Notes under the pieces: generated by a model | Databases searched by the model: none | Seen by the model: the letters and a program-made list of their open reading frames with translations, nothing else | Told to the model about the DNA's origin: nothing | NCBI GenBank assembly: GCA_012845835.1 | Contig: JABAKD010000002.1 | Location: 13,310,847-13,374,846, forward strand | DNA length: 64,000 nucleotides | Reading direction: 5' to 3' | From: Undaria pinnatifida | Lineage: Eukaryota; Sar; Phaeophyceae; Laminariales; Alariaceae | Shown here: one piece after another, positions 12,901 to 62,600 of the stretch | Layout: each line of letters starts with the position of its first letter | How positions within the stretch are numbered: the stretch's first letter is position 1 | Position numbers and translations under genes: made by a program

Positions 12901-15900
12901 AAGTAAGCGCGCTAGGCGCTCATGGGAATATAGAACATCTAGGAGAACGTTCCTTGTACGTTCCATAGGAAAAGGTCCGGAAGAGAGCACAGCAGCAATA
13001 CTTGGGTGACGCGAACTCCGTGAGCTTCACCCCACCCCCGTGCTCTCACTACCTGCTCTACCAGCTCTGCCTGCTATACTTGCTCTGCCCTGCACTACCG
13101 TGTGCCAAGGGCCTGTGTTGTCTGTCTTTTAGAGTCCAATGAAGAGGAAATAATGTATAAGCTTTTGAGTCTATCCAGCGAGCCATGAGGAGAGACCAAA
13201 CAAGGGCACCGGAACCCATGAGGAGCACGCTTCCCAACACCTACCAACCACGCATCCCCCACTCGGAGTACCACTACACTTACCTATTGAGGGAACTCTA
13301 TACTATTAATAGTATACCTTCACCCCAAAACCGATTTTGACAAAGAAAGAAGGAAAGTGCAATCTGATGAACAAGCCCATGATCTGGATATTAAAAAAAC
13401 AATAGTCACATCGCAAACAAGAAAAATGAAAAAATCCGGCGATTATGGGTTAAGAAGCCCCGTCATTCAGAAAAAAGAGTTTCCCAAAAAGTGCTATCTT
13501 TATCGTGGCACGTTTCTGTGTCAACACAGCATAGGCTTGTCAGTGCCAAGAGTCCACCGCAATGCCGAAACCAACATGTAGCATATCGCCAGTAGACTAC
13601 GTATGGAGGTCGCAAGCGTACCATGATCAGTTCTTTAGTCAAGAATCTGTCTATTTCAACGAAAGCCGGTGGTCGTTATCCCGTCACCAGCACTTTTAGT
13701 CAAGTTTTCTATCGGTTCCACCGAGTACTGCTTATCGTTTGCGGCCATGATCAATCCCTGGTACAATACCTGGTACTTTAGTTATGTTGCACTTCCGTCG
13801 AGGGGGCGCGTACAGAAGAGCCTTTGGGGTGGCCGATATATAGTCGGCGTTCATGACGCAACAATTGGAAATCGACGCGAGTTGACGAGGGAAGAAAGGG
13901 CTAAAGTCTTCTCTCGATAAAAATGAAGGCACGTACAGAAGTCGGGAGGGAGGAAAATAGCCTGCTCAGTGACCCTGGACTTGAGTTACGTCTAGAAAAC
14001 GAGAAAGAGAAAGAAAAAGTGCGAAGATAATAGATGGGACGAGAAAAAAAAAGCGCTCTTTTGGTAGGGTCTCTGCTGCCGCACCTCCTAAAGCCGTTCT
14101 CGTCCCTGCTCCATGTAAAATTGATACGTTATTCCGGCCGTTTCTGCAGGGGTATCGGAAGCGTTTCGACGATTCACGTTCGCCACGTCTCCCGCGGCGC
14201 TCAAAGCGGCTGCGGGGGTGACCGCTGAATGCCTCTGGCTGGTCAAAGTCCGCGCCTTGTCCACGTATCACCAGGTCAGCTTCGTTAAACTAGATTAGTA
14301 CTACCAAATGGCAATGGCACATGTTGTACCTTGGAGAGTATTTCTTTCAGTGGGACGGTGACGAAACAATTCAAGCCGAAAGCACGTTGTTCGCAAGCTT
14401 TTCCCACGTTTCTGTCGTGCTTTTAGGGCTGTAAACTACAGCAGTGTTAGGTGGCGCGATTATGTTTCGTCTGATCATCTGCCACTCTCGCGCATGGATA
14501 TCCTACGACGTGCGTGTGCTACGGACGATTGTTTCGGGAGCCCTTTCGGCTGGCGGCCTTCTCCCGATGCCAGGTCGAGTGAAATCAAAGTCGCGTCTGC
14601 GTGAAAACCAATTTAATGACGTTGAACGATACAGAATGTTTTTGTACCTGGTATGCAATGAGTGACATAACACATTGCGTGTGTTTGTGCCCGTCCTCTC
14701 TTGTGTGTGCTGTCTTCACATGTATCTATGCACGGACATGTACATGTACGGCGTCCCCGTTGTTGTGTTTCGAGCGGTTGTTGCCTCAGGATCCCATTTC
14801 GGCAACTCGTAGCGCGATGCTCTCGGTGGCAGGACGGTTGACATCCGAAATGGCTCTCCATGAAAACTAGCATTTCGACGGTCAAAAACGCAGTTCTTAA
14901 GGTAGTATTAAAACCTTCCTGGCATGATACTTTCTTGGGCCTGATCGTCCCCACCCTCTGTGTGATATTTTTCACATTTCCGTCTGCACGGGTATCTTCA
15001 TGTTTACGGCGTCAGTGTTGTTGTGTTTACCGAGACTATGTCCTCGGGGGCGGCGGGGGGGGGGGGGTACCTCTTTTTTCACTGCTAGCCCAAGTGATTC
15101 GAAAATTAAGTATTGTCTTGAGTTGGAAACAATGACGAAATGTCGACGTTCCCCCTCCCAACTGCGAAAAACGTGCAGTTTGTACTACTGTACGTCGCTC
15201 TCACACTGTATGTGAAAATCATTGAAAACTACTTGACGTACACCCCTCTATTCGCCCACGGTAGTGCCTGCGGAATCGTTCGGCAACAGATGGGAACAAC
15301 CAGCAGGTGCGACACACACAGTAGTGCCGGTTGCCTCTATGGTGTCGGTGTTTTCGGCCGGAACATACCGGCACTATTGAGAGGTCGCTACTTTATTCTC
15401 ACCCTTCCCCCTCTTTTCTATCCACGTTCAATGCACTGTTTTTTTTCAGGAGCCCTTTCGGCTAGCGTCTTTCTCCCGGTGCCAGGCCGAGGCTCTCAGC
15501 GCAGCCAAGCGCATCATACGGGAGGAGTGGCCGCAGAGGGTCGGATCGTGCATACACCAGGCCCTGAAGCGCCAGGTTCCGGTGGGGGTTACTTCTCCAA
15601 CAGGAGGCGGGAACTCGTCCCCTGATCAGGCAAGCCTCTCGTACTGCAGTAGACGTCCCTCTATAGTGCCGGTTGAGTAGTGCCTGTGGCATGGGTGGCA
15701 ACGACGGCGGCGGCGATGACGGTGACGGTCGTGGCTGATGCCGCCGCTGCTGCTGCTCCTTATCGTGTTTCTCCAACACCGCCAGCTTTTGCCCCCGTCC
15801 GTCTGGCTCCCTCTATTTCTCGTCTTCTTCATTCGGTGTTTTTTTCGTCGAAAATTCTTCCCAATCTCATCAACAATGCTGTGCCCAATCTCGTCGAGCA

Positions 15901-18900
15901 ATATTTGATGCCCAGTACGTTCGCGGCACAAGCCGTTACTACCGGTGCAACACGGTAAGCTCCTCAAGCGCTGTTGTGCATTCCAAGGGGCCCAGTGTCT
16001 GGGTTGCGCATCTCCTAGGTTTACCCTCGGCTGGTGCCTGTCCGGTGTCGCCGTCTGAAAGGGCTCCGATAACATTGACGACGTCTTTTGGCAAAAATTC
16101 CTACGTCGGAGATTTCACCCTTGACATCCACGACTGCCTGGATTCTTGATACGTAAGCGAGCTGCTCCTCGTCATTGACGCTGAGAGGAAGGGCTGCGGA
16201 TACCTGCGGTTGTGCCTTGCTATTGGCCTGCGGGAGTCGCTCTGGAGAGTGCACGGCGCTGCTCCTAGGCTTGTTTTCCCGGGCGGGCGCTCGTTGCTCG
16301 TCTCTCCTGGCTTGTTCCTCGGGGCTGGCTGCTTGCGCTTCTACCCCGGCCTCCGGAGCTGCAGTCCAACTCTCCTCGAACGTTTTGTGATTTTTTGCCG
16401 GCTGGCTAGCAAGCCATTGCAAGAAAGCTGGCCCCTCCACCATCTTGCCTAGCCCCTAGCCCTAGCTATCTTGCCGTACAATTACGCTAGGATAACTGAT
16501 GGAACGTTTCGTGTTGTTTTGCCGGCTGGCTTGCAAGCCATTGCCAGAAAGCTGGCCCCTCCACCATCTTGCCTAGCCCCAAGCACCAGCTATCTTGCCG
16601 TGCAATTACGCGAGCGTAATCGATGGAACAGGTGCAAGGGGTTGGCTGGTTCACGGGGGCGGCAGTCTCGATACCAGAGGTGCCTTGACGCGGGACAAGA
16701 GTACAGACATAGCTATATATTTATCAAGTTAGAGCCCCATGGAGATGTAGCTAGATTCATTTGGTAGTGCGACGTAGGGGCGTGCCCCTTTGCCACATTG
16801 TGGCCCAAATTTTTGTGCCCGTTCGGGGAATCATAAGTTCCGCCGCATCTTCGTGGGTGTGTGACGGTTACAAAAAACACCCAGGATATATATCATTCAG
16901 ACATTGAAACAAGCAACAACCAACAAGGGGACCTGGGGCGGCTTTGCTTGAAAACAGTAGAGTACATACTTTTGTTCGTCGTCGGTTGGTTAGGACCAGG
17001 GGTTGGCCTCAATTTCCCCACTTGACCTATTTACTACTGCGAAACAGATCCTATACTATTTTCAAGTACATTGTTCAAAACAATGTGTGTGCAGTTCTTA
17101 AGGGTTGCAACACCGCTTCAATCGTTGGGAAAACGATTTTCTTGCTGAGGGTCTTTGAAACGAGCGATGGCGTGAGAGCAGGGGGGCGGGGGCATGTCAA
17201 GGGGAGCGTACCCATTTGCTACTTGCCTTAGTCATTTGACCAATGAGCATGCGCCCCTTTCGAGACGGAGCACCGTTCCTACTCCTGTTCCTAATAGAGA
17301 CACCTCTAACGTTCGGCCGCTCAGTACGTTTCTTCCATATACCAAGTATTACATTAAAAAAAAATACTGATCTTATCTCCGGCGGGGGGGGGGGACGGGG
17401 TAGTGAGGGAACCGAGGGAGGCTTTTCCTAAACACAACACGCGGGTCTTGATTTGTTCGTTGTCGATTGATTCAGAATCAGGGTGGCCTTCCTTATCCCC
17501 TCCCCCCCCCCCCTGTTAGTCTTTGTAGCACTACACTACCGTTACATAGAGACAAGCTACTTGAAATTGGAGTTGGAAAAAGGGTTGCCCCTAAATCGGA
17601 CGCACGCTACCAAGGTTTTTATTTTTTTCTGAGGCTCATAACCTGATGAACATTCCCATGGGCTTAGCATACAACGAAAATTGTTCCGAAACAAAAAAAT
17701 GAAAATTTCTGACGATTTTGGGTTAAGGGGCTGAAATAAACTATGCTCTCGGGGGTCAAAACCGGGGGGGGGGGGACTTGCTACGTGTGCTCTTGTGTGT
17801 CTCGGATGTGTCTCTGGTGCGTGGGGCTTGGCGCGTGTTGCCCGCGTGGGGCTTGTCCAGCAGAGGAATAACAGGATCAATGATATTAAAAAACAAAATA
17901 ATGGTTTAGGAAAGTTGGCCACACAATGCATCAAATAAATAGTACACGTGTAGATAATGCCTAAAATTAATATAAACGCCACGAACAAAATACTGACCCG
18001 TCACTATGAATAGCTTTGAGCCGAAAAATGCTACGTCTATCGTGCCATGTGCTATGGAACCGGGTTTGTTTTTGCAGAGGGTTTCCAATAGCAGCGAGGG
18101 AAAAGGAGGGGGGGGGGCGGGGGGGGGGGGGGGGGAGGGGGGGGCAGTGAGGGGGCCGAGGGTGGCGAGGGTACCGGCGGCAGCGGTGGCGCCGCAGTGG
18201 TTCGGTCACGGTTTGACATGTCCATTTCGGAGATGGAGCGCTACGAGGTTTCGGACATCAGAAGATTTTTGCGATGGGCAAACTACAACATGACGGACGC
18301 CCTTCAGGTAAACAAAACTAGTAAATACCGCCGATTCTATAGAACACAATGGAGCTACGAACGTAGCCCATGCGAGTATATTTCCTGCTGCTTTCTTTCT
18401 ATGTTTCGGCTTACCCTGCTGCGTGCGCGAGTTTCTAGCGGCAGATTCACTATCTTTGACTACGTAGGAGCGCTGAAGTGTTTTCGATTCCGCGAGTTTT
18501 TAGCGGCAGATTCACTATCTTTGACTACGTATGAGCGCTGAAGTGTTTTCGATTCCGCTCACCCCGCCACGCAAACAAGCTCTCGAGACGGTGGCACAGA
18601 TGGCGAATATATCTCCGCTTTAATACGCCGAGCAACGCTAACATGTTTTTTTCATCCGCTCACCCCGCCACGCGAAAATGTTTTCGCCAGACTGTGACAA
18701 GGCGCACGCTGCAGGAGTTCTCGGACTACCTATTAAGGTGCTGCAGCTGCCAGGTACACCGAAACAAAGCGTTCGCCTTGCATAGGCAGTTCGATGTAAC
18801 ACGTGCTGCTTGGCTACACATGGGGATGATAACGTTGTGTGTCGTACAAATGCCACTGATAGAGGCAAGAAAACGTAGAAAGCGATGGTGAGGGGAGTAT

Positions 18901-21900: not shown

Positions 21901-24900
21901 CATGTTGGCGCGCGTGTCGTGTCGTGCAATTCCTTATGTTGCAGTCCGTACGCATCCATTGCCTCAACAGCCCGGGCTGTTTTGCGTCGCCGGTTCCGCA
22001 GTCAAGTCGGTTTTGGTCCGCATTGTTTCCCAAAGCCTGAAGCCTCGAATAAGGGGTTAAGCGGGAGATTGGTTGTAACCAGTTGCAGCATATGCTACTA
22101 ACTACAGGAGATACCACAGTTTCCCCCCCTCGCCCATAATTTTCAATGTAGATTCGTGAGGGGCATACGTCAGTCTTGAACATAAAAAACAACAACAACG
22201 ATGAATCTAAACGTGGGGGGTGCTTGTCTATCTGCCCAGCTAGCGCGATGTTGCAGCAAAAGCACAGCACGGCGCATCTTGTTGAAAAGCCACGGGAGAT
22301 TATTGGTCAACCACATACATGCATCGTCTTCATCGAACATGTGGAAACTAACGAATGTCGGGAGTGCTACGGTAGACGCGTGCTTCGATAGAGGTGCACC
22401 ACTTTTTTTCTGAGGCTCCTCAATTTTGGGAGCTTAAGACATGTCCTCCTTAACCCAAAAACTGATTTGGAGAAAAGTAAAACTGCTTTGACCGGACGAC
22501 AAATCCCATGGCCTAGGTAAACAACGAGAACCATGCAAAAAAAAGGTCTTTTCCCGACGATTTTCGATTAAGGAAGTCCCGTCCTTCAGAAGCCATTTCA
22601 GCCAAAAAAAGGTATACCTCCATCGTAGCATGCGTCAACCATTGCACTTCTTACTTTGAATCCGCCCCCCGTATGCTATATACCTCAGAACAGTCGAGTC
22701 GTCCCTCTATGGTGAAGCAGGGGTTGCGCTTTGTGGGGCAAACGTTTTTTTTCTGGCCTCTATAGCGAGGTTGAGCTCCTCAACCGCGGAACTATCGATT
22801 AGCACGATAATGTTACGAGTACATCTGTGTGGCATAGCAATGTTGATCGGGTTTGCGCGAACAGATGCCTTCGAAACCATATTTCGGGTGAGATGTTGAG
22901 CTAGCTTCTCATGTTTGGAGCTCGGAAACTTCTGCGCTGCACCCTTTCGTAGCGTGAGAGGACGCAGTCCCACTGTGCGTGTAATTTATTCTGCCTCTAT
23001 CCGTCCCGATGGCCACAGACGGCGAAACAGTAAGGAGACAAAAGGAACATTTTTTTTTTCAAGTAAGAAATTCAATGCAAATCGACGAGCTAAAAAACTG
23101 AAGTGGGAATGCTGTGAACCCGGCGCGCGATAAAAATTAAAGAAAGTATCGTGGGGGAGAAGGAAAGACACCTGTGACCGTGGCCTGTCCACAAGTTCGC
23201 CGAGGGTAAATGTCACATTGCGAGTTGGGCTGGGAAGTAATAAATGTGATGATATCCTGGTAGCTCGAGAGGGTAGGTAGGGCCAGTGAGACATGGACGC
23301 CCATCATCTCGTATTGGTAGCTGTTGGTTGTTGGATTCGTTGTTTTGCGCTTTAACTTTTCGTCGTGTGGATTTTCGGTTACTTCATATGTTTTAGTGTT
23401 GACACCAAAGCTGCACATCGTCGGATAGCAAACGAACTACAATAATAATATACAACGGAAAAAAAAACGTTATAAGTACCCAAATGTTGGAAGCGCCTCT
23501 GTTAGGAGCAGGAATGGAGCTCCGTCTTAAAAAAGGGATGCGTGTTCGACGGCCAAACGAATATCGCAACAACAACACGCAAGCACGCCGCCCTCCCCCA
23601 AGTCGTTCCCATACTAAACCGCATGTACCAAGCACACTGTGTTCCCTACCGGTCTTTAGTTCCAGCTGCAGGTGCCCAGAAAATTCAGGTCAAGCCGCAG
23701 ATACTATGTCATGGCAATGTCCGGTTTGCGCGAGTAAGGTTTTTCCGCTACGAATCTACCCGTAAGCCGCGTGCCCCAAACACCCTCATTTTCCTTGCCG
23801 GTATTCTGTGTCTGCCGGCTCTACTACACAGGTGCCCAAGGTTCTTGGTCACGTCCCCGAAGTAGAAACGCCCCTCGAGGATTTCCACTCCGAGGCGATG
23901 AGCTGCTACAACTCCACGCTGGAGAGGGTCGCCGGCATTCACCAGGTAGTGTACTGTTTGCGGGTACACAAAGTCAAGGGGGAGTATTGATGTATGCTGC
24001 TTATGGCGACGATGCACCTCATTTCTCTGAGACTCCTCATTGACGCCTGCTGCGGTAGCGGACGCGACGCGTACTACGATATGGGTTTCCACTATCTTTA
24101 GATAAAGTGCTCTCTGAACGACGGAGCTCTTAGACCCCATGTTTGCGGTGAACCCACATTAGGTTGGGCAGGAGTTGGGTGGGAAAATGTATTAAGAATA
24201 GTATTTAAACCGTCGAGCGTCACAATCCAAGGCCAAGCCTAAACCACGAAAAATTAGCGGGAAAACAATGGTTAAGAAAATGCGTGTCCCCTACCATTTG
24301 TTATTTTCGAACCTAATTTTTTTTTCGTGGATTGGTTGGCCTTGTTAGACTTTCTCGCAAATCAGCGGTAAAAACAGGTTAAGAAATGCGTTTTCTTACC
24401 ATTTTGTTTTATTTTTAAAACCCAAGTTTTTCGTGGGTTGGTTGGTTGGCCTTAGGCTAGTATGTCATTCATCGGTTTCAATACTATCTTTTACATTTTT
24501 TTTTTCTCGACAGAGGTTGGAGATCACAAACACTCTATATAAGGTAACTTCTTATTATAAATCATCGCCTACGTGGGTTTCGTGGTCATTGCAGATTCCA
24601 CAAGAAAAACAAACCAAAGTACGTTTTTTGTTTGCACGCCCCTCTCCCCTGATTCGATCTCTCCTTCCTGTTTTTCTTTATCCCGGAGCAGGTTCAACGC
24701 TTCGTGATGGACCGTCTTTTCTTGCCGGAGCCTGAATACATGGCGGTCGCTGGCCCGAGCGAGCCTTGGGTGTTGGACCTGAGGGATCGAGTGGAGAAAG
24801 CATTGAACGCCGCCATCGTTCCCCTCAGGGTGAGAAAAACAAGAGGCATGTACCAAGGCCACAATGAGGAGGGGAAAGGGGGCGAGGGTGTGCTTATTTT

Positions 24901-25653
24901 TAAGCATGGCCGTAGTCGTAAGCGGTAGCTGAGCCGAGAGGGCCTTGGGTATTGGACTTGACGGGGGGCGAGGAGAAAGCAATGGACGCCGTTGTCGTTC
25001 CCCTGAGGGTGTACTATGCAATTCACGCGGTGTTGTTATGTGAATTGCGCTGGCCTCTGTACTTCTTGCTTCCGTCTTTTTTTCGTATGGTGGGAGTTGT
25101 TCTGACCAAAACACAATCGAGAGCCAAATGAACTAGAGCCAGCAGTGGTGGCGGCGAATGGAGAACAAAACATTGGGTGCCACTATCGTGCCCCTTCGGA
25201 TGAGCCACAATCCAGAGAGCAGGCGTTAGGTGGAGGCAGGCATACATCGTCTCCCTCGACTGCAATTTTTTTGCGTCTATCATCCTTTATACCGTCCTTC
25301 ATATGCATGCAGTACTCCGTATATACCTGGTAGATGCAGTAGTAGCGCGGAGGCGAGACCATAATTATTCTTCATCTTCAAGGGAGACGCTATCAGCATA
25401 ATTGTCAAGTGGATTGCGATTGTCCGTCATCGCGTTCCTCTTTTTTGTTGCCCTGAGCGGGCCTGCTGCACTACCCGCTGTGGAAACATCACTCCTCCTT
25501 CAAATACGCTAATGTGATAACATTATCGGCATCATCATCATCATCTCATCATCATCACCGTAATCATCATCATCATCACCATCATCACCATCATCATCAT
25601 CGCCATCATCGTCATCATCAGCATCATCATCATGATCGTCATTATCATCATCG

Positions 25654-25697
<44 letters not shown>

Positions 25698-28600
25698 GTC
25701 ATCGTCGTCATCACCATCATCTATCCTCTTATCGTTTTCCATAACGATCTATGCAACAACGTTGAGAGCTAGCGTGTCATCATCACCGCCATCGTCATCA
25801 TAACCATCCTCATCGTCATCACCACCTTCATCACCACTCCCCCTTCCCCTCCTTCCCCCTCCAAACATAAGCAACCTTTTTTTAATCAGGGTTAGGAGAA
25901 ACTGTCCACATACACTAAATTACCTTTCTTAACCCGACCGAGGAGCAATACATGGCCTCTATGACGCACGAAAGAGGGCGCTAGCAGAGTGAGCCCACTG
26001 CTCAACCCCCTGAGCAAACATCACTCCCCCGTTACCCCCCCCCCCCCCCCTCCTCTCCCCTTAACTGCCGGCGCATGTTGAGTCATCCCACGGTAGGGGT
26101 TGCAGTCATTAGATTAACTAATAATGTACCAGTTCCGATTGAGCTCCTCAAGTGAGGAACTAGCGTTTAGTCATTGATCGAGTAATTATACGAGTACACA
26201 TTGTTTTTTTAGGACTACGGCATAGAAGGTTGGTCGGGCTGTGCGAACGAATGTCTTCCAAATCGTTTTTTCAGGTGAGATAATGAGCTCCTCATGTGAG
26301 GACCTCAGAGACTTTCTGCTGCACCCGTACCGTGGGATGGCGCATGCTGCGGTAGAGGTACCCCTTATTTTGGCTGAGGCTCCTAACCTATTGAGGAGCT
26401 CCATACTGTTGATAGTATACCTCACCCAAAACTGGTGTTTGAGGGAATACTGAAATAGCAAACTTGATGAAGCAAACCCATGGCGTAGGCATACCTAAAC
26501 GTGGCAATATTGCAATATAATAATGGCATTCCGACGATACTTCGATGTATTAGGTTAAGGAGCCCCGTCATCTAGAGATTATCTAGGCACAAAAGAGCTA
26601 GCCCCATCGTAGGTCGCGTTCCCCGTTGTCTCAAAGCGTCATCATCGTCATCATCATCATCATCATTATCACTATCACTATCATCATCACTATCATCATC
26701 ACCATCGCCATCATCATCATCATCACCATCATCATCGTCGTCATCATCATCATCATCCTCATTATCATCATCACCATTTTAACATCATCATCGTCGTCAT
26801 ATTTCCCATTCTCTATCCCCCTAATAAACTACGCGACAACAATATACAGGATGATGCAAGGCTGTCCGAGCCGTATATGAGCTTCCTGAGCCATCACTCC
26901 CCTGATATTTCGTCCTCTATTTCATCCTCCGAACCTAGGCAACATCTGTACGCCAATATGAGTACATACATCACAACCAACTTAACAGTCGTCATCAACA
27001 CCATCATCAGCATTGCTATCATCAACATTACAATAATCGCTATCATCGTCAATATCATCATAATCATCATCATCATCACCATTTCTCCTGATCTCTTTGC
27101 CCCTCCAACTCCAAACCTGCTCAACAATACAAGGACTATGTGAAGCTGTTCGAGCCGTACATTAGCTTTCTCAACCTGGACGTCGAACAGTACATGGCCT
27201 CGATGACCCACGCGGGGGCCAACGGCGGCGGCGGCGGCGGAGATGACGACGACGACGAGGAGGAGGGACTTGGGGTGGCCGAAGTGAACCTCGAGGCTCT
27301 TCGAGCGGTTCTCTCAAAGCATCAGGTAAATAAAACTGCAGTGGGGGGGGGGTTCCCCAACAGTGCCGGTTGAATAGTGCCTGTTACCGATGCAGCGCGG
27401 GTGAAATCGCTTGGCACGACTGGAACCATAGTGCCTGTTGCCGATACAGTGCGGGTGAAATCGCTCACCACGACCAGAACCCGCTGCTATACCGACACGT
27501 GTTGCGATAGAGGTGTCACTTTGCGGCCGAAACCATGTTGCCAATACAGTGCGGGTGAAATCGCTTGGCACGACTGGAACCATAGTGCCTGTTGCCGATA
27601 CAGTGCGGGTGAAATCGCTTACCACGACTAGAACCCGCTGCTCTACCGACACGTGCTACGATAGAGATGTTACTTTGCGGCCGAAACGTTTCTGATCGAA
27701 GGGGGAGCTCCTCGGCTTAACGCTTCTACAACTGAAACCCGGTTTTTGGTAAAAATTACTTGGAGTTAGTATAGGGGGATTTTTGGGGGCCCTACAGAGA
27801 AAAAACCACCTAATATGGTTGATAAAAGTATGTTTACGATGTTTTTGGGGTTTCCGCCGAGGCTAAGGGCGTGATGGATAGTTCATCGGGTTGCGCTATG
27901 GGGATTTTCGAAGAAGGACCCTTGGAAGAACATAGGACGAAGCTACGGTGGGGGGGAGGGGGGCATGCTAAGGGGGGCATGTTAAGGGGGGGCGCACTCA
28001 TTTGTTGCTTGGGCCTTAGTCATTTGACCATTGACCACGCATCCCTTTCGAGACGGAGCACTGTTCCTACTCCTGATAGAGACACCTCCAACATTTGGGC
28101 GCTCGTTACGCTTCTTCCATGTGTTGCACATAAACTGTTTGCTTATCCCATCCCTACCGTACGGGGGTCAATTTTGGAGGCGTTTTTTGGCAGTGTCTCG
28201 GGGTCACCCGCGCGAGTGATCCCCTGCGTTCCTTCGCAGTCTCGAGCTTTTCCGGGCTGTTTTGTTTTTCTCGATAGGAATCCGCGATGGACATGGTTAG
28301 CTTGCTACGGTGCGCCAAGCAAATCGCCCAAAGTCTTTTTGTCAGCAAGGCACGAAGCCATTCGTGCGAGTGAGTGGCTCCAATCCAGCGACGATAAAAG
28401 GGGATATGATACTACAAAACCGTCACCATGTTAGGCCGACTCATCCCACGATAGGAGTTGCATTTGTTGGATTAGCTAATAATGTACCTGTCCGATCGAG
28501 CTCACACTCAAGTGAGGAACTGGCGGTTAGTCGTTGATCACGTAATTTCACGGGTACGCATTTGTTTTAGGACTAAGGCATAGAAGCTTGGTCGGGTTGT

Positions 28601-46600: not shown

Positions 46601-49600
46601 GGTCTAAGGCAGCGGGGGTACCCCCATTTCCACTATCCGGTTTTGAACCGCCCGCACGAGTGACTCTATACCTCACGGACAAGAAATCTTTGGACCATTC
46701 TTTTCTGGGCGAAGTGTACCTTACCGTTCCATTGCGGTTTCATTTTTCGTTGTTGTTGTTGTTGTTGTTGTTGCTGTTGTTGTTGTTGCTGTTGCTGTTG
46801 TTGTTGTTGTTGTTGTTGCTGTTGTTGTTTTTGCTGTTGCTGTTGTTGTTGTTGTTGTTGCTGTTGCTGTTGTTGTTGTTGTTGTTGCTGTTGCTGTTGT
46901 TGTTGTTGTTGTTGCTGTTGTTGTTGTTGTTGTTGTTGTGGCGCCGCGTACCTTACCGTTCCGTTGCGGATTCGTATCGCAAAAAGTTGACGCCACAGCA
47001 CGAAGGCTCAAGACCGGAAAGGAACTGAGGGGGGGGGTCACTCGCACGAGTAACCCCGAGCAACCGCGAAAAAAAAAAGAAAAAGTGACTTCCCTACTGT
47101 ATATATATGGAAGAAGCGTAATGAGCGCCCAAAATGCTGGAGGTGTCTCTATTAGGAGTAGGAACGGTGCTCCGTCTCGAAAGGGATGCGTGGTCAATGG
47201 TCAAATGACTAAGGCAAGCAACAAACGAGTACCCTCCCCGCCCCCCCACCCCCGTCCCCCCACCGTCCCAAAAAGTGACCCCCCCTACTGTATCCTCGGT
47301 TTGGTATGGCTTATCGTTCGCGGCTATCATTGCGCGTACGGTAAGCTATACCAAACACCGTAGACGGCAGTGGGTGAGGCGTGCGACGGTAGGTGTAATA
47401 GTAATAGCACTTTTAGCTTCTTGCTGGTTTTTTTTTCTTTCTCCCCCAAATCGTCGGCATTTCGTTTTTTTATTTTCTCCGATAATTTTCTTTGAACAAC
47501 CTACGCCACGAAATCGTTAATCGCGTACCTGGTAGCATTTCCCCCCCGTTTTCCCCCCAAAAATATTTTTTGGCGAGGTGTGGAGCTCCTTAACTTTTTG
47601 GTGTTTGAGAAAAAAACTGGAACACCTCTATCGCCTCTATCTCTGTCGAATAGGGCATTGCTAAGTCAAAACTCTTCACGGGGGGTTGGCGAAATCAACA
47701 ACACCGTCCTCGACAAACAGATGAAACAGCAAGCCGTGTTCTCATGCTAGATCTCACGGAAAAGTTACAGCATGTAGGTTTTTCTACATCGTTCGTATCA
47801 ATGTGGGTTACCGCGAGACGGGGACGGCGATCCTCAACGGCGTCAACCGACGGAATCAACAGCTGTTCTCCACGAAGAGGTGAAACGCATATCTCGGGGG
47901 GTAGGACCTGGTAGTTCATGGCTAGTCTATGCAGGTAGCCTACGCGGTACAGGTAGTCCAATGACGACGGAGTATGATTTTTACATCAATGCGTTTGCCA
48001 CATTGGAGGAAGACGGATGGTATAGCATACGCATGCACGCATACATTATCGTGTGCCGACATCTGTTGTACGTTTCTCCGGATTCGAGGAAAGCGGATTA
48101 TATATCGTACGCATGCACGCACACGTATCGTGCGATATCCATCGTCTGCTTCGACGTCGGAAATAACGGATGTCTTGGGTTAACTATGTAGCAGGTCGCC
48201 CAGGTGGTCCAGCGGTTACCCTCGAATGCTAATAGAGTGGGTTCTGGGGTTCGAATCCCACGTGGCTCGGGCTTTTTCAACTTATTTTGCGAAGATAAAA
48301 GATCACAGGAATCAACTGCTGAGAGCGCCTAGCAGCGTGGGCAGGCACAATTCGACGCGGGTGGACGAGGGAAGACATAGCTGGAATCTTCCCGCAAAAA
48401 AATCCCGTAGTGCGGAGGGGGGCAGAAGAACCTGCTTGAATGTCCCGGAGCTGAGTTAGGGAGAAGGAGCAAGCAAAATTTCGAGGATGGTACAATAGCA
48501 GGGATGAGCAACAATGAATAAATAAAAGGAATACGAGGGTGTTTGCGAAATACCAACTTTGGTTGGGAAGAATTGGGTAGGAAAATGTATTAAGAATAGT
48601 ATTGAAACCGTCGAACATCACAATCTTACGCCAGCCCACACCCAACCTAAGAAAAAATCGTCGGGAAAAAAGTGGCTATTAAGGAACATGTTTTCTTTCC
48701 ATTAAAAAAACATATTCTAGCCATTTCTTTTTTCTATGGGTCGGTTTGGTCTTGGGTCAATATGTCGTTCGTCGGTGTCAATGCTATTGCCATATTTTTT
48801 TCCAACTCAAAAACGTACTTGAACGCAGCAAGCACCCTGAAAAATATCTTTGCAATATTATGAATCCATAACTCCCCGCCCCCCCCCCCCCCCGTTTATA
48901 AAACATCGTCTCCCTGGAACATGGAAGTTAATGAACGTCTTGAAGTAGTACGCATTGCTGGTAGTTAATTCATTGAGGGCAGGTAGCACTTTTTTCTTCG
49001 ACGCGTGCTATGACAGAGGTAGCAATTTCTGCCCTCCTACGACAGAGGTAGGTAGTTTCTGAACGACGGGGCTCCTTAACCCTTTAAAAGCCCCCAACCC
49101 CCCCCCCAAACAGGCCTGCGGAAAGCCCGGAAAATAGCCAGGAGTCGCGGCAACTTATTCGTTCGATTTCTGAAGCGCTTGTTCTGTTTCATGTGTTTTT
49201 ACCTTCGTCCCATGTAGCGATGTCGAAGTACGACAAAAGCGAGATGCAGTTCTCGGCATTAAAAAGACCCTTCGCGGGCAGGATTGATGAAGCAAATCTG
49301 CCGCCACAACCTTGAAAGCAACGGCATACAGCACATAACGTGGAAGGAGCCGCGGCAATATATTCCAATTCGGCTTACTAAGGCGAACGATCGTTTTTTT
49401 GTTTCTGCCACAGGTAACCATGACACAAGCGATGCAATTCTCGGCGTTTAAGGGACCCTTCGCGGAAAGGATCGATGTTTGGAACGCCAAACTCTACATG
49501 GTAAGAGAGCATCCAAGAGTATCCTACCTAGCCTACGGCAGGTATCAAGCTACTGCCGCCCACCCGTTCCGTTTTTTTTTTAACAACGTGAATCGCGCAT

Positions 49601-50734
49601 ATGTACCTTTCACGGCTCGAAGGCAAGCATTTTTCCAACCACACGTTGGAGGTTTTCACATAATAACTTCTTGGAGCTTGTTCCTTAACGAGTGTCCTGT
49701 CATAGATACCAGGCTTTATACCGCCCGCTCAGTTTTTTTTTCTGATTTTTTTTCCCCCTTGGTTTTCTTTTGCTCTCTGGGAATGTGTTTTAGGAGCCAA
49801 CGGCGTTGATTCTCATTCTAAACAATGCCAACTTGGCAAACATAATAATTCGTCGAACTCACGGCTGACGTCGTGGGGATGGGGCGTGGAGGCGGCATAG
49901 TAACATTTACGGAAAATGCCGCCCAACCGGGGATTTTCCGTGGCGTATCTCCCACTACAATAAGGCCAAGCCGCCATAGGAGTTTCATAACGTAATCGAA
50001 TCGTTTTCACTGGGGTATCGTACTCGAGCACAATCAAGTATGGTACGGAGGCACGCACTGAAAAGGAAAGGTGGGGCACGGGCAGTAGGTTCGATCAGAT
50101 CGACGCCAACCCGGAAGCAGATACTGAAGGGAGTTAGACTCGGTGCATTGGGGTCCTCTTTCGGTTACTATACGCATGCTAGCGGTAAAATGGGCACCCT
50201 TTGTTTTTTCTGAGGTTTACTGATCCTTTTGAAGAGCTGTTGTATACGAGTACCTCCCCCAAAAACACTTGTTGTGGGTAAAACAGAAAGAGCAGCACAT
50301 ATCCATGGCTTAGCAATAAAATACTACCAGGTATCTCTATTTTCAAAACAAGAATGGCATTCCGACGATTTTGGGATTATAACGCCTTCACTACTGGAAA
50401 GCTTACTTGGAGTTAGTATAGGGAGGCATTTTGGGGCTCTAAAGAGGATTAAGGAGCCCCCGTCGTTCAGAAAATGCTTTCGCCAAAAAAAGGTACACCC
50501 TATCAAGTCGTTCTACGGTAGCCCCCCCGACTTCAACTTTTCTTTAACGAAATCGCCGGTTTCGAAACCAGCTCCAGCTCCCGGCCGTACCTTCTGAAGT
50601 GCGGTGCCCCTTGCCACCCCGACGTCATCGTTCGACCGCCCCTTGAAAAATCAGAAAAATACGTTTGAGATTTTTTTTTCGTAGCATCCTTCCTCCTGTC
50701 GAGCAGCCGTGAAACATTCGTCGAAGAAAATCGC

Positions 50735-50765
<31 letters not shown>

Positions 50766-53580
50766 AGCGGTTATCATAGAATCAGTCGGTCGCAGCACGC
50801 GCCGTTTCCCTTGGTTATATTTTTCTTACTTGGACTGTTGTATTGAGTGGTTGACTGGTGAAGCTCATGCGTTGCACTTTTTTCGAAAGGCAAAAGAGCG
50901 AACGAATAAAAAAGCTCCAACTTTTGGTTCCTCGCTTACGTACGTTTCAAAAAGATTTCTGAGGTCTTGGAGGCGTGGTTATCGGTACAGCGGAACTGGC
51001 TCTATCTTCAGCCCATCTTCGAGAGCCCCGACATCAACAAGCAGGTATAGCCTCTAGCCCCGTGCGCAAATCATCCAACACTACCAAGTCTCCAGCAAAA
51101 TGTCAACCTCACCTTGCAAGTTAACACAATGCCCGAGTGTGAATTGCGGAGCCGCGCAACGAGAAATAGATCCAAGCTGACAGCGTTCTTCTCTCGAAGT
51201 ACTGTGCTGGTGTCGCAAGAAACCCACGAGTGTTTGTCATGTTTCAAAAATGGTTTTGCTCGTTGTTCGGCAATCGCAGGATTTTTTCGGTTCGGTTCGG
51301 TTCGGTTCGGTTCGGTTCGGTTCGGTTCGGTTCGGTTCGGTTCGGTTCGGTTCGGTTCGGTTCGGTTCGGTTCGGTTCGGTTCGGTTCGGTTCGGTTCGG
51401 TTCGGTTCGGTTCGGTTCGGTTCGGTTCGGTTCGGTTCGGTTCGGTTCGGTTCGGTTCGGTTCGGTTCGGTTCGGTTCGGTTCGGTTCGGTTCGGTTCGG
51501 TTCGGTTCGGTTCGGTTCGGTTCGGTTCGGTTCGGTTCGGTTCGGTTCGGTTCGGTTCGGTTCGGTTCGGTTCGGTTCGGTTCGGTTCGGTTCGGTTCGG
51601 TTCGGTTCGGTTCGGTTCGGTTCGGTTCGGTTCGGTTCGGTTCGGTTCGGTTCGGTTCGGTTCGGTTCGGTTCGGTTCGGTTCGGTTCGGTTCGGTTCGG
51701 TTCGGTTCGGTTCGGTTCGGTCCGGTTCGGTTCAGCAGGTAGTAGGAGGGAAGCCATGAACGCGTCTCTAGAGTGAGTCAATTCAAACTCGAAGTCTACG
51801 AGTAGAAAGAAAGCTTCCTCGCGGTTCGTGTCACGTCGATGGTTTCGGTCATATCGTCTCGTCGCCAAGGTAGAAATTAGTTCATACCAGGCGTCTCGTA
51901 GCAAGCCAAAGAAGGTGTACTCATTTCACCCCCCCCCCGTGTTGTTTGTTTCAACCGCAATGTCGGGGTTGAAAGCTGCCGGCAGAAGGAAAGAAGTTTG
52001 CCATGGTGGACAAGAACTGGAGACAAACGATTTCGAGCGCTAAGAGCAACAGCAAGGTCGTCGATTTCTGCAATAGCTCTAAGCTATTGGAACGATTCAA
52101 GTGAGAGAACGGGTAGTGGCGGGGAAAGCCGTCATTACCACAGCCATTATATTGTTTAGTTTAACCCCCGAGCAAAATAATCAATGGTTTCCTCCACGAC
52201 CAAAACAAGCAGATTAGACAAACATTTAATGACCCCTCCCCCTGTCTAGAGTACATTGGGGTATTCTCTCAACAAGACGCCCCTTCGCCCGTGGCGACCG
52301 CCTACACGTACGCATGCCACACTCTGCCCGATTGTCCACGCATCAGGCAAATCACGATCTAGACCATCTAGATCCTATACATGTTGACGTAGTAACATGT
52401 TATGCAGGATCTGTGCAGCACAGATAGATCCAACAGGATCTGTGCATCACAGATAGATCCAACCCAGGAAATGTGTGCTATAAATAGATGGTGCAGTAGA
52501 TCATACGGCTCCCACCCCGAAACTCAATATGTTGTGCGAGATCTGTGCAGTACAGATAGATCCAACCCAGAAAATGCGTGCTAGATGGTGCAGCAGATCA
52601 GACGGCTCCCATCCATCAAAAATAATATGTTATGCGGGATCTGTGCATCACAGATAGATCAGACCCAAAAAATGTGTGCTAGACGGTGCAGTAGATCACA
52701 CGGTTCCCACTCAACAACGCAGTATGGTTTGCGGGATTTTTCATCACATGTAGATCCAACCTAAGAAAATGCGTGCTAGATCGTGCGATAGATCATACAG
52801 CTCCCACCCAGCAACACAATACGTTCTTCAGGATCTGTGTAGTGCAGATAGATCCAACCCAAGAAAAACGTGTGCTAGATGGTGCGGTAGATCATACAAC
52901 TCCCACCCATCGACATAGTACGTTCCGAATGACCAGTGCAGCACAGATATATCCCACCTAAGAAAAGGTATGCTAGATCGTGCAGTAAATCATACGACTC
53001 CCACCTGGCAACATGATCTAAAATAGGCCATGCAGATTTGTTAAGATCACGGATCTATCTGCCATGAATGAAACAGATCTATCGTGAATGGGGAATCTCA
53101 TCTGTCCAATGCGTGCACGGTTCCCACGCTTTTGGCACGTTGGGTCTTCGTTTGCAGAGAAGGGGCGCAGCTACTGGACGAGGTGCAGAAGGGGTTGAGC
53201 GATTACCTCGAGACGAAGCGGTCGGTGTTCGCGCGGCTGTACTTCTTGTCCAACGACGAACTGCTGTCGATCTTGTCCGAGTCGAAGGACGTTCACAGGG
53301 TGCAGCCTCACCTCAAGAAGTGCTTCGAAGGCATCGATAAGGTGAGAAAAAACTCTTCTCTTCTTCCTGCTTTTTACCATTAAAAATTATCGTGTGTGTT
53401 GCTTAAGGACCAAGTCTACCACACAGCAAGGGAAATCACTCATGCCACGCGGTAGACGTGCACCTTTTTTTCCGAGGCTCGTAGCCTGACGAGGTGTATA
53501 TCCCGGCCCAAAAACTGATTTTGAGAAAAACTGAAATTGCAACCCGGTGAACCAATCCACGTTGTTGTTGTTGTTGTTGC

Positions 53581-53616
<36 letters not shown>

Positions 53617-56600
53617 CTCTCGTTGTTGTTGTTGTCTCTTGTTGTTGTTGTTCTCACATTAACTCGCATAATCAAGTCCGTGGTCACAGGACAGGCTCCA
53701 GTCACTCTGGAGCTGAGGAGTACCCCAGGGAAAAACACAAACAAACCAAAGGTGGTGCACGCATATATCACAGCTGACGCAATTCATGCCTCCGCCAGAA
53801 ACATATGAAAAGCAACTGAGTTGAATCGACACACGACCCGTATGAAAATACGTAAATGTGTGGTGAGCGTAAGCTTTATTTATCCCACCCCATCCGCCGG
53901 AGGATAAAAAAAGAAAAAAAGAAATAAAATAAAAACCATACGAGTGATCGCCCAAGTATACAAATAAAAGCATACCGAAAAGACCCGTGCTACGATGGAG
54001 GTATACCTTTTTTTGGCGAAAATGTTTTGTGATGAAACCATGGGGCTCCTTCACCCAAAATCGTCGGGAAAAAAAAAAATAATAGGCCATTTTTTTCGCA
54101 TGACTCTCGTTGTATACCTAGGCCGGGGGGGGTTGTTGTCCGGTACAGCATCCTTTATTTTTGCTCCAAAAAAAAAAGTTTGCACCTCAGAAAAAAACGT
54201 GGTGCGCCTCTGTCACCTCTATCGTAGCACGCGTCCAACAAAAAAAAGAACGACGTTTACACGATTTTGGGTTAATATAAGGAGCCCCGTCATCAAGAAA
54301 ACAAAAAAACCAAAAAGAGGTATACCTTAGTACCTTGATACCTTTATCATAGTTTTTGTTGCATACTCGTACGTACCGAGGGTACCAGTACTGTGCGGTA
54401 CACGCGGGGAATTATTTGCAATCCTGATCTTCAGCACTAGCGGTGCTGGTCTTGGTTGCAAGATGTACACCGTCGCCATTGCAATTGTTTTGGTACACTT
54501 CGCCAACCAAACGTTTCAAGAGTCCGTTCTTGATCGAGGCACAGAGCCAATTGCACGAGTGGCTTCTAGTCGGTGGCGAAAATGTAGGAATGACACTATT
54601 AATATATGAAATGCTATGTAGACTCAGCCATAAACTCGCCACGTAGTGCTGGTCGGTGTTACTTTTCCGGGTCACTTGCGAGGTGGCTAGTTGTTTTTGC
54701 TTGAGTTTTTGCAAGCGTTTTGTCCCTCCTGTTCAACTTACGACACCCCCGGCGGGATTTCAAGCCAGCCACGACCCTAAGGGAAAGGTTTCATGATACT
54801 ATCGTACCGCACCGTACGGCTAAGATACTCAAAATAAAGGAATAACGACGAAGAACACACCCTCAAATATTAAGCTGCCTCAGAGTCTCTGGCACGGAGC
54901 TGTGCGACGCAGACCACGGTGCTGCCATTTTTCGGCGAGTCAGTCGATCTACAGGGTAGGGTCGAGTGTGTACCTGCGCCACTACGTATGTCCATACCGC
55001 TGCTTCCGACCTTTCTCGGCAATGAAACAATAGCAGCAGGTGGGTTAGATCAATGTTAGGCCGGTCGAGGCTTAATTGTAGTATAGCGACCAAAACCGAC
55101 CCGTGAGATCCGATGACCCGACCCGGCTCGACCCGCGAGAGTTTTAGAAACCTCCTGACCTGGCCCGCGGGTCGGGGTATGACCCATGAAAAGCCCTGGC
55201 TATTATTCTGCGGGCTCATACCGCTTGTATTTCGCTTTTTGCAGGTGGTTTTCGATCGCGACCTTCTCATCACCCACATGGTGTCTCCCGAAGGGGAGCA
55301 GCTGAAGCTGGTGGAAGCGATCGACCCGAAGGGGCAGAACGTGGAAGGCTGGATGCTAGAGCTGGAGGGACAGATGCGGCTTACGGCAAGAAAGCAGAAA
55401 CACTATTATTGTATACGTTTTGCGACAACCTGTTTTTTTTGGGGGGGGACATTATTAGAGTTCGGGAACCGAACCAAAAATATGGTGTTTTTTTGTTTGT
55501 TTGCGAGAAATGATTGCGTAGGCGTTTTGGCTCACATTCTGTGGTTTGAAGAATTGACATGGATTGCAGCCGCATATGGCAGTGTTTTGGTTGATTGCGC
55601 AAGTGGCAATCCCAAGCGGGTACAACACGGGACGGTGCTGGCAGACTGGTAGACTACGCGAACAGACGACAATATGCTGTCGCTAGTAGCTGGCCTGCAG
55701 CTGCTGGGCCAGGTATTCGTACCCTCGTCATGTTGCTGTTCTTGATTGAAAACAGGAGACTTGACCTACGGTAGCCCAACCCGAGTTCAACAGCAGCAGT
55801 GAACTTGCCTATATCGTCTGTCTCGACGAAGGAAAATGATGAGCACCTTGAATTATACTAAATTACAGCTTCGATAAGAAAGATGCAACATCTTTTTTTC
55901 CGGGGCTTTCTTCTTTATTATTACATTATTAGAGAATGCTATGAGTGATCAACGTTGAAGCTCATACCGCAGACTGTCGGATGGCAAGCTACAATATTTA
56001 TAACGATGAGTGAGAACGTCGACTATGGCTGGGTGCTTGAGTTGGAGGGACAGATGCGGCCTACGGGTAACGCCCGCCTACGGTGTAGCAGAAACATTGC
56101 TTACATTGTTTCAACAGCGTTTTCGTGGTGCACGATGCCCTGGCCATGCTATGCCTACACATATCGAGTCAATGGTGAAACTTTACTATTGTGTATTCTT
56201 GTTCAATTTCACCGACCAATTATACCTAATTACCTGGTTAGACGAGACCTCCTGCCCCAATCGATGATCCTCGCCCGGAATGTACTTCCGCATTAATCTT
56301 ACTATATAGACGTACATGGTGTGTATCAAGCTCAAACTTATCGTAGTGCGGTAAACTACTGGAATGTTTCGTGTGACTAAAAACCAACGTTGGGGGCGCT
56401 GACTGGTTCAGCACTATCGTACTTTGGCCACATTCTCCAAGTTTTGCCTCGCGCCGAGCACGTGGTTCCTAGAGTCAACTCTGGCATTACATGCCGCCGG
56501 GCGTGCATCCTCAAATTGATCGAGCTCACAGCTGATGTATTTGCAATAAATAATTTTGTATTGGTCTCTTTGAATGCAAACCCAGGGTGGAGGCGGTTTA

Positions 56601-59600: not shown

Positions 59601-62600
59601 ACACCGTGACTATCGGCACAAATGCAAGGGCTTGAAGCACGGATTCCGTTGTACCGCTGCTGCTGTTCTGATGTCTTCTGATTTTGTGGCTGCCAGGCTG
59701 AGCGGCTGCTTTTGAAAAAGACACCCACTTCTCTTTGGATCGTTTTGTGTGCCTATGACGGCAAACGCTCCAGTCACACACACAGAAGCGCAAGCACAAC
59801 ACGTACACATGCACATAAAAGCGCCGCCATCCGTGGCTGTCACAAAGAAGAGAGATCACAGCGCGGCTGCCGTTGTACTGTGTCTACCATAAGTAGAAAG
59901 CCTGGAGGGCCATATATGATGCAGCAGCAAAGCATCAGCGCCAGGAAAAACTGAAACATAAGGGTTTCTATGGACACTGCGCAGCTCGGCGAAGAGGAAA
60001 GCAACCCCTCAAAAATGTACTTTTTCGAGCGACTTTGAACGCGCAGAGTTCTTGGCATGGACCCCGGCCTGGAGCATACTTGCATAGTCATGCACAGACA
60101 GCCTTCCTGCGTGCCCCGCCGCCGAACGCGCGAAAAACTACAGTCGGACGACGGAACAGACAATGCAAACGTGCAAAAGAATACGCATTTTGTACATAGT
60201 AAGACCAACTATTATGGGAAATATTTTGAGATATTATTTCTCTTTTCAACAGGAATCTCCGACGCCAAAAACGAAAACCATCCACTATGGGACCATAAAT
60301 CATCCTTATTTCTGGGTTCAGAAATAATCGAGGCCAGAAATCAGCGGATTCGGTGATTTCTGAGCCCAGAAATAACAGCTCTTCCAACCTCTCAGAACTG
60401 GGATTATTTGACTTTTGGATACTACCTCGTACCAAGTATCATATGTCACCACTGCCTATACTTTACCTGGTATGATACCTGTCTGCTGTACACGTCACCC
60501 GTCACCCCCAACAAATAATCACAAACACACCCACGACAGCATACCGCGCTTGTTGTGTGCGAGACAGAGCTTCGTCCTCACACGAAGGCGACAACAGCAG
60601 CAAACCACTTTCCGAAAATCAGACGCCATAATGGACGCCCCTTATTTCTGATGCAGTTATTTCTGGAGCCTCAAAACCACAAAAATAATCGCCAAAAAAA
60701 ATCGCTCAATTTTTATTTCCATAATAGTAGGTCTAGTATCTAAGCGATGCATATTGTGTTGCGCGCGGTGCGCGTTTTTGCTCAAACACCTCGGAGATTA
60801 AAAAGCGCGTTAAATACTAAAATACCGTACTTTGGTCAACTACAAGGTCGGCGTGCCGCGACCTTAATCTTTGGTCAACTACAAGGTCGGCGTGCCGCGA
60901 CCTTAATCGGTATCTTTTCGAGAAACAAATGGGCTCCAACTTGTGACGCAATCCATGTATCCAACCCAACGCTAATGAGCACAACTAATGAGCACAAGCA
61001 ATCACAACACTATGCACCGGTAATTGTTAGCAATGCCCCTCCCCCCGAAATTGTTAGCAAAATAAGCAACCCCTTGAAATTTTTACCACGCAGCTCTGTT
61101 TTACCTTGAACCACGCTGTACTCAGCGCAGTTCCGCCAGGCCATATGCGTCACCCTCCGCTCCCTAAGATTCCTCCCCGACGAACCCCCAACGTTCGTCA
61201 TCGACCAACGATCTCGGTTTACTTAGGTCTGACTTTTCGTGGACGAGCCAGTTACGCTAGTTACTTGCTACTTTTCGGTGCACCCCTACCCCCAACCTTC
61301 TTCATCAGCCACCCTGATGTTGGACCTTGCTACCAGCAAAGCCTCCAAACCTGAGCCAACTCGGTTTGGTTAGTTCTGACTTTCCAAAATGTCTCTCGGG
61401 TATATCTGGATCTGACTTTCCAACGCACTTCGGTTTATCTTAGGTCTGACTTTCCAACTTATCTCGGGGTTTATCTTAGGTCTGACTTTCCAACGTATTT
61501 CGGTTTATCTTAGGTCTGACTTTTCGTGGACGAGTCAGTTGCGATACTACTGGAACGACGGGGACCTCTGGGCGGAAATGGTGGCGGCGAGGCGCCCGTA
61601 CGGATACGAGTACCTTGGAAATTCGTTCCGTCTCGTGATCACGCCGCTGACGGATAAGTGTTACTTAACGCTCATGGGAGCGCTGCAGATGATCCTTGGC
61701 GGTGCCCCGGCAGGTAAGGAAAATCGAGCACTACACAATATGTTGATTGTGCTTGATCATGATACAGCAACGGCGATGGTTGATTATGGAAGGGAGTTGT
61801 AATAGAGGATTGGATGTACGTGTTGAAGTGGGAAATTCATCTCCGTCGGGCGGCATTTTCCATTGTGCTTAGGCATCCTTGCTCACTTGATTTTTCCTTC
61901 GGTGATAAGACTTGATGAATGCATGGATGCCCGGCAAAGGAGCAAATGATACTTTTGGCCATCTGCTGGTAACCCTGCCACCTCTGCTGTTGGTACAAAG
62001 GATGAGCCCGACGTGCTTCAAGGATAAAGAAAAACAAAACATTCTGCGCTGTTGTATTGCTCAGCGCTCACACCGAATGACGCGTGCAACGGCAAGGGTA
62101 GCAAGTTTTTTTAACAAGCTTTGTCTGACCGATCGGGCCGCCTAACCGAAAAACAACCCCGTATCGTTGGAGTGCCTTTTTTGTTATTACAACATTGATT
62201 GTTGGTTGTATGCCTGCCTTGGCCGCGTCATCGCGCATCAGGCTAAATCAAGCGCTCTATTTTTCTCAACGCCCATGGCTTAGGTGAGAAGTAGATATTC
62301 ACAAAGCAGGACCTCGTAAGTGTTTTGGAACACCCCTACCGTTGCGTGTGCTTGACCACCCTAACCCAAGCAGGTTACATGAGGCCTCTGCTGCCCCAAC
62401 GACCGCGTTTGCTGGGGATGACGCGGACGACACTCTCATCTCGTACAGATCCTATCCAGTTCTGCCACAACCTCTGTTCTCCGGGTTTTGATTAGTCTTA
62501 GAAGAACATTTTGACGGGATTGCTACTCATTCTACAAGCCATTTTCGCCCCCACCCACAGAGCCACCCATCAACGTGCCTCCGATGGCTGCATTTTCGTG

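Follow-up and report, generated by a model that had tools for sequence, protein, structure and literature searches.

In a stretch of 64,000 nucleotides from the brown alga Undaria pinnatifida (NCBI GenBank assembly GCA_012845835.1, contig JABAKD010000002.1, positions 13,310,847 to 13,374,846 of the forward strand; the whole stretch is referred to as the window), 14 of the 31 exons modelled for an axonemal dynein heavy chain gene have partial copies of their own edges in the surrounding introns. These copies, which we call echoes, are most probably the remnants of sequence duplicated locally and in direct orientation (tandem or near-tandem) around the dynein gene, in a manner akin to the exon stuttering described for chicken genes. 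An earlier inspection of the letters alone (the sequence-only reading) had listed at least 14 exons with same-strand copies and about 25 copies in all. Our independent search returned the identical list, namely exons 6, 12, 13, 15, 16, 17, 18, 19, 20, 21, 22, 23, 27 and 30, which confirms that the observation is real and well described.

The gene was modelled by tblastn with an Ectocarpus protein combined with splice-site fitting. The 31 modelled exons give an open coding sequence of 4188 base pairs (bp) and cover about the N-terminal third of the heavy chain; the gene continues beyond the window, and its first exon may start further upstream than the modelled position 3302. Ectocarpus dynein heavy chains were the closest proteins among the matches listed, with an amino-acid identity of 84% to the Ectocarpus protein over 1394 aligned residues, and DNAH1 was the best match of the exon peptides among solved structures. 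When compared with the Ectocarpus protein, all 31 exons join in frame by using the original splice sites only and none of those in the echoes. The median intron length is 1559 bp, and the guanine-cytosine (GC) content is 47.7% in introns and 58.5% in exons. Exon 27 (55245-55385) apparently has a GC donor (GCAAGA), and an array of the (GTGCG)n type of approximately 350 bp (8560-8910) starts at the modelled donor of exon 3, the first array unit being the 5' splice site. A 2.4-kb stretch of the gene was without match in phage records, and in IMG/VR the dynein protein had no confirmed relative.

Echoes were searched for by running every exon, together with 237 intron tiles (135 bp each), against the window, in which interspersed repeats and simple arrays had been masked. 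Intron tiles with at least 20% repeat-masked bases were left out (237 were kept), as were matches that were more than 40% masked, and tiles whose partner was an exon were tallied separately (24 at score 100). At the main cut-off (blastn score of at least 100, same strand, not more than 1.5 kb from the exon) partial copies were found for 14 of the 31 exons, compared with 0 of 31 on the minus strand at the same score and distance. With a score of at least 80 and a distance of up to 4 kb from the source exon, 25 rows were listed. One of these, for exon 9, lies in a non-adjacent intron with E = 0.1 and is probably due to chance. With 29 bp and a score of 100, the exon 16 echo is weak. A protein-level search by tblastn also recovered many of the echoes. 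Furthermore, the screen published for chicken, applied to the dynein gene, gave 14 adjacent-intron matches of at least 42.1 bits, all of them on the same strand, which belong to 10 exons and 10 of the 30 introns; distal introns gave no match of at least 42.1 bits in this screen, and the best match in 20 letter-shuffles of the introns reached 26.3 bits.

The source exons, as placed by the gene model, and their echoes are as follows, where percentages give the identity to the source:

3302-63245, + strand: DNAH1-type axonemal dynein heavy chain gene, N-terminal part, 31 exons (tblastn, splice-site fitting)
15450-15616, + strand: exon 6, source
14529-14579, + strand: exon 6 acceptor-side echo, upstream, 88% in the exon part
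24692-24829, + strand: exon 12, source
24922-25011, + strand: exon 12 donor-side echo, downstream, 78%
27134-27325, + strand: exon 13, source
25893-25970, + strand: exon 13 acceptor-side echo, upstream, 71%
26850-26892, + strand: exon 13 acceptor-side echo, upstream, 74%; the intron part matches too but is CAT/ATT-rich
30460-30520, + strand: exon 13 donor-side echo, downstream, 87%
30543-30587, + strand: exon 13 donor side, weak further echo, 71%
30809-30849, + strand: exon 13 donor-side echo with the same inner breakpoint as the echo at 30460, 80%
31975-32014, + strand: exon 13 echo, apparently a re-copied piece
33941-34088, + strand: exon 15, source
33748-33825, + strand: exon 15 acceptor-side echo with intron, upstream, 85% in the exon part
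36657-36746: exon 16, source
36429-36457, + strand: exon 16 weak echo, upstream, 29 bp, 83%
38073-38216, + strand: exon 17, source; its donor side is unit 1 of a four-unit tandem array
38349-38906, + strand: exon 17 donor side with intron, three more tandem units, spacing 210-217 bp
39621-39774, + strand: exon 18, source
39924-40066, + strand: exon 18 donor-side echo with intron, downstream, 71% in the exon part
40107-40178, + strand: exon 18 donor side, second and more diverged echo
40722-40920, + strand: exon 19, source
41181-41281, + strand: exon 19 donor-side echo with up to 29 bp of intron, downstream, 88% in the exon part
42000-42180, + strand: exon 20, source
41399-41511, + strand: exon 20 acceptor-side echo with up to 26 bp of intron, upstream, 79% in the exon part
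44877-44966, + strand: exon 21, source
44610-44662, + strand: exon 21 acceptor-side echo, upstream, 86% in the exon part
46407-46565, + strand: exon 22, source, with echoes on both sides
46106-46202, + strand: exon 22 acceptor-side echo, upstream, 85% in the exon part
47682-47720, + strand: exon 22 donor-end echo, downstream, 77%
47803-47879, + strand: exon 22 donor-side echo, downstream, 81%; no clear match past the donor
49414-49500, + strand: exon 23, source
49226-49289, + strand: exon 23 acceptor-side echo, upstream, 78%; a weak match extends to 49140
55245-55385, + strand: exon 27, source, with the GC donor
56004-56065, + strand: exon 27 donor-side echo, downstream, 79%
61514-61713, + strand: exon 30, source
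61205-61261, + strand: exon 30 acceptor-side echo with 22 bp of intron, upstream, 89% in the exon part
61370-61523, + strand: tandem array of 34-36 bp units repeating the exon 30 acceptor and first bases; the modelled acceptor lies in the last unit

Two exons have echoes more than 1 kb away from the source, exon 13 at 1.2 kb on the upstream side and at 3.1-4.7 kb on the downstream side, and exon 22 at 1.1-1.2 kb. Exons 12-23 (24692-49500) hold 11 of the 14 echo exons, that is 11 of the 12 exons there compared with 3 of 19 elsewhere (Fisher p = 9e-5, for a stretch picked after seeing the data), and no cause for this clustering was found. The GC content is similar in exons with and without echoes (58.1% and 58.7%, respectively). 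Exons with echoes are longer (mean 149 compared with 123 bp), and length alone raises the chance of a match. The introns that harbour echoes (12 introns, with that of exon 16 omitted) are no longer than the others.

The arrangement of the echoes follows a simple rule. Copies of the 5' part of an exon are located upstream of it and copies of the 3' part downstream in 24 of the 25 rows (the exon half was assigned by inspection), the single exception being the row of exon 9. Counted over independent exon edges with one event each, the rule was kept in 15 of 15 cases (p = 6e-5). None of the 25 rows is a whole-exon copy. The border of the exon is reached within 3 bp in 21 of 24 rows in a sensitive search (exon 9 omitted). 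The exon-internal end is sharp, with an inner extension score of not more than 16 over 21 echoes. On the intron side the extension score was at least 40 in 14 of these 21, each of which exceeded the best of its 15 random extensions; two of the 14 (exon 13, acceptor side) lie in CAT/ATT-rich intron sequence and may match for that reason, and in the third copy of exon 17 the extension begins within the exon. Exon 17 and part of its intron form a tandem array of four units, exon 18 is present in three units, and the exon 30 acceptor ends an array of short units. Tandem clustering is clear at exons 17 and 30 and partial at exons 18 and 13, and most other exons have one copy per side. The exon 13 copies at 30460, 30809 and 31975 share bases outside the exon match, as if the echo itself had been copied again.

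Local direct duplication would account for this arrangement if the duplicated unit ran from within the exon into the adjacent intron, which would leave an intact exon beside a truncated copy. The copy carrying the acceptor would then end up upstream and the copy carrying the donor downstream. Duplications of a whole exon, or within an exon, would alter the mRNA and would be purged by selection, and the orphaned half would drift neutrally as selection preserves the real exon. Simulated tandem duplication obeyed the side rule, which was kept 194 times and broken 6 times (8 settings summed). We infer that each echo arose in tandem, that the side rule is the work of purifying selection and that breakpoints fell preferentially close to the edges of exons. 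Slippage, template switching, end joining or unequal exchange may have been the route of duplication, and these are indistinguishable from this sequence.

The sequence-only reading had also suggested that exons are copied more often than other intron DNA, and had named equal rates in intron segments as the result that would speak against it. At score 100, matches were obtained for 14 of 31 exons (0.45) and for 43 of 237 intron tiles (0.18), a ratio of 2.5 (Fisher p = 0.0016). With the cut-off raised to a score of 200, matches remained for 0.16 of the exons and 0.08 of the tiles (p = 0.17). Because exons do not decay, a fair null required simulation. Uniform tandem duplication was therefore simulated with mRNA-altering events discarded, codon positions 1 and 2 frozen and introns evolving neutrally (252 runs in 37 settings, part of which were reported as means only). 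In 35 of the 37 settings the mean ratio of exons to introns at score 100 was 0.29-0.85 (0.22-0.91 over all score cut-offs), compared with the observed 2.5. Two burst settings with extreme intron turnover gave mean ratios of 1.1 and 1.8. One of these two settings had at least one run, out of eight, that reached 3.5, but its mean match rates (0.12 for exons and 0.07 for tiles) were much lower than the observed ones. None of the 37 settings reproduced both observed fractions. Exon edges are over-represented in the dynein gene, unless intron turnover there was far above that assumed in most of the simulated settings.

Two further explanations of the excess were considered. Possibly, although we rather doubt it, there was a burst aimed at exon edges and not at DNA in general. 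Within a single period of this lineage, segments of approximately 50-150 bp spanning splice sites would have entered the adjoining intron at several times the rate of intron segments, by a process linked to transcribed exon borders. If this were true, exon stuttering would not be peculiar to birds and would not result from extreme GC content, and the asymmetry of codon positions between exon and echo would allow old episodes to be dated in any genome. The other explanation is that tandem duplication occurred generally throughout the introns and is seen more easily in exons since the exon side does not decay. Intron-only local repeats do occur, in the 43 tiles mentioned above, and the youngest local pairs are among them (a 65 bp unit with 98% identity, 154 bp with 94% and approximately 100 bp with 93%). 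Six such young loci, compared with one young exon echo, would be allowed by a uniform process. The simulated ratios, however, make such general duplication an unlikely explanation for the echoes.

Several observations weigh against a simple tandem origin of the echoes, and we list them together. The exonic parts of the echoes are short, with a median of 59 bp (over 15 edges, with a floor of 35) and all below 90 bp (maximum 89), which is less than expected from uniform breakpoints (p = 0.0002). The intron-side extensions have a median of 51 (21 values), compared with simulated medians of 56-264, and are shorter than in most settings. Simple tandem duplication predicts that the intron between the exon and its echo recurs beyond the echo. 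Whole intron parts did recur there in 9 of 18 comparisons, two of the nine being CAT/ATT-rich, and the distal half of the predicted unit was recognisable in 2 of 18. For exon 6 (7% one-sided divergence), exon 19 (8%) and the donor side of exon 22 (8%) no significant match was obtained, though one would be expected to be still visible. Among donor-side echoes, 6 of 10 (exons 12, 13, 18 second copy, 22 twice and 27) showed no clear match past the donor. Introns with echoes, counted as above, are not richer in tandem repeats than the others (6% compared with 14%). Moreover, young pairs are mostly intron-only, with six such loci at an identity of at least 86% (about 7% one-sided; by inspection) and one exon echo below 7%; this tally would fit a uniform process, and the exon excess sits in the old cohort. 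Finally, the analysis covers a single gene. Either larger insertions and deletions have rewritten the introns, or what was copied was a short piece with the splice site at its centre.

Another explanation is that exon-edge pieces were inserted locally from an RNA template or by some other non-tandem route, the copy often ending at the splice site. The donor-side echoes with no clear match past the donor, the far ends unrecognisable in 16 of 18 comparisons and the shortness of the exonic parts would agree with it. Insertion by itself does not predict the side rule, however, and the 14 of 21 echoes that extend on the intron side, even with two of them in simple-repeat-like sequence, point the other way. 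In addition, the flanks of the echoes do not run into the neighbouring exon as spliced RNA would, since only 1 of 19 matched a neighbouring exon at p < 0.05, as chance gives. We regard non-tandem insertion as quite improbable. On the same two grounds, exon-exon junctions at chance level and intron sequence included in the echoes, a processed retrocopy was rejected. Intron gain by duplication of an AGGT-containing exon segment was considered since it likewise predicts the side rule; it was set aside because the echoes lie within the introns and not at their ends, and because of the intron-side extensions.

The decay of the echoes was examined by codon position, by comparison with Ectocarpus and at the splice sites (22 echoes for codon positions, 22 for the age test including 15 independent ones, 20 for the Ectocarpus test, 21 for extension and 19 for splice sites). 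If the echo is free to change and the exon is free at silent sites only, divergence is expected to differ by a factor of two. The factor would be larger if both copies were constrained, and one if both were free. Over 22 echoes, the observed divergence was 12.3% at codon position 1, 13.6% at position 2 and 26.1% at position 3. At 4-fold sites it was 29.8% compared with 14.2% at second positions (20 echoes). Additionally, 5 stops and 17 gap runs were found in 379 codons (20 echoes). The echoes decay neutrally while the real exon is held by selection. Both splice bases were kept at 14 of 19 echo edges, with a neutral expectation of 0.757, so the spare splice sites, which had been suspected to litter the introns as decoys, show no sign of being kept.

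These data also bear on tandem exon duplication giving rise to alternative (mutually exclusive) exons, some of them still in use. Retained splice bases, and the length of some echoes in frame, sufficient for detection by tblastn, could be taken in its favour. Yet there is no whole-exon copy among the rows, positions 1 and 2 have drifted as in a neutral copy, and stops and frame gaps have accumulated; splice-site retention equals the neutral expectation. Moreover, a truncated upstream echo lacks the donor of the exon and a downstream echo lacks the acceptor. Such alternative exons are very improbable. Assembly overlaps can produce local duplication of sequence, but an artefact or merged haplotypes can practically be dismissed, as the copies differ by 7-28% at positions 1 and 2 (exon 30: none in 23 sites) and carry stops and gaps, whereas an overlap would be near-identical and a functional allele would not drift at these positions.

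We compared the echoes with each other and with Ectocarpus to estimate their age. At residues that differ between exon and Ectocarpus, the echo agreed with the exon in 30 cases, with Ectocarpus in 9 and with neither in 19 (a residue present in two echoes was counted twice). This places the duplications after the split from Ectocarpus and before some later changes of the exons. Pooled divergence at positions 1 and 2 was 13%. A single common age fits the echoes (p = 0.59 for 22 echoes, p = 0.68 for 15 independent edges), and a uniform spread of ages was rejected (p = 0.0002 and p = 0.0015, respectively). Only the exon 30 echo is below 7% divergence, and the probability of so few under uniform ages is 0.002 (22 echoes) or 0.02 (15 edges). 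Because young echoes are the easiest to see, their scarcity argues against a steady process; some of the old echoes escape detection. With a divergence near 13%, the echoes resemble a single old cohort. Most events seem to fall within one period that followed the separation from the Ectocarpus lineage, and the standing process proposed by the sequence-only reading was not supported.

The closest precedent is exon stuttering (Hron et al., 2026; PMC12954441), which, in the parts of that paper considered here, is described as partial direct copies of exon edges in adjacent introns of genes on chicken dot chromosomes. There it affects 190 of 5,572 dot-chromosome introns, with 1-44 copies (median 4) and exonic parts with a median of 36 bp. 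Its occurrence is reported for birds (for gerbils as data not shown), and a link to high GC content is tentatively suggested. As in chicken, edge copies of coding exons with their acceptor or donor lie in the adjacent intron beside an intact exon, tandem clusters appear to occur at some exons, intron-only repeats accompany the copies, and the exonic parts measure tens of bases (36 there, 59 here). In contrast to chicken, the dynein gene belongs to a brown alga, with a GC content of 48% in introns and 58% in exons compared with very GC-rich sequences, mostly has 1-3 copies, and carries old, decayed copies, where those of chicken are polymorphic. Echoes occur in 10 of 30 introns of this one gene, and decay was measured here by codon position. 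More than 90% of the sources in chicken lie within 1 base of the exon border, compared with 6 of the 14 matches within 1 bp when the same screen is applied here, where decay possibly breaks up the matches. Tandem Repeats Finder coverage is 11.3% of intron bases and 2.8% for the median intron in the dynein gene, compared with intron repeat medians of 7-93% on chicken dot chromosomes. By its central definition, as given in these parts of the chicken study, the dynein gene is a case of exon stuttering, a distant and old one at ordinary GC content.

A precedent for this density of copies in a single gene was not known to the sequence-only reading, and the chicken genes provide one. Of the sequence-only interpretation, about half stood: local same-strand duplication with selection sparing events that leave the mRNA intact agrees with the side rule, the lack of whole-exon copies and the neutral decay, and the exon excess was likewise borne out, but the standing process, the lack of a precedent and the decoy sites were not. 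Besides Hron et al. (2026), our literature search found no further account of exon stuttering or sequence stuttering, nor any other of partial exon copies with a splice site in adjoining introns; most subscription journals lay outside this search, and earlier reports may exist. As far as the sections of the following papers considered here show, related geometries are known. In a single potato gene, tandem duplication across an intron-exon boundary produced an upstream copy with a small exon segment and a new intron (PMC4974935). The boundary-crossing geometry is the same as here, but a new intron is spliced from the duplication in potato, whereas in the dynein gene the reading frame and the Ectocarpus alignment appear to need the original sites only. 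Brown-algal ROCO and NB-TPR genes show exon shuffling of LRR and TPR exons (PMC11378527), and thus exon duplication within genes of the same lineage. In those genes, however, whole in-phase exons are duplicated, expressed and diversifying, compared with partial and decaying edges here. GC-rich avian genes with tandem repeats in their introns (PMC6792250) add nothing on exon copies in the portion considered.

The same pattern at ordinary GC content in a brown alga suggests that the underlying mutational process is more widespread, making introns longer and adding spare splice sites to them. Furthermore, a pair of exon and echo is useful as a clock, in which positions 1 and 2 mainly record changes of the copy and third positions those of both members. 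Age and neutrality of an echo can thus be read from one genome.

The introns contain other repeats. Intron-only tandem arrays with units of approximately 54-154 bp, a counterpart of intron stuttering, are located at 35793-36285, 45021-45317, 52391-53017, 27335-27687 and 16372-16629. Long low-complexity arrays (8- and 5-bp units, TTCGG, GTT, CAT) were seen at 10046-11043, 51286-51733, 46749-46939 and 25530-25721. About 14 kb of the window were masked as interspersed families resembling transposable elements. One of several such families is common to the introns at 6366-6644, 22769-22966, 26071-26350, 28438-28713 and 32284-32482, with inverted copies near 1545-1811 and 9267-9401.

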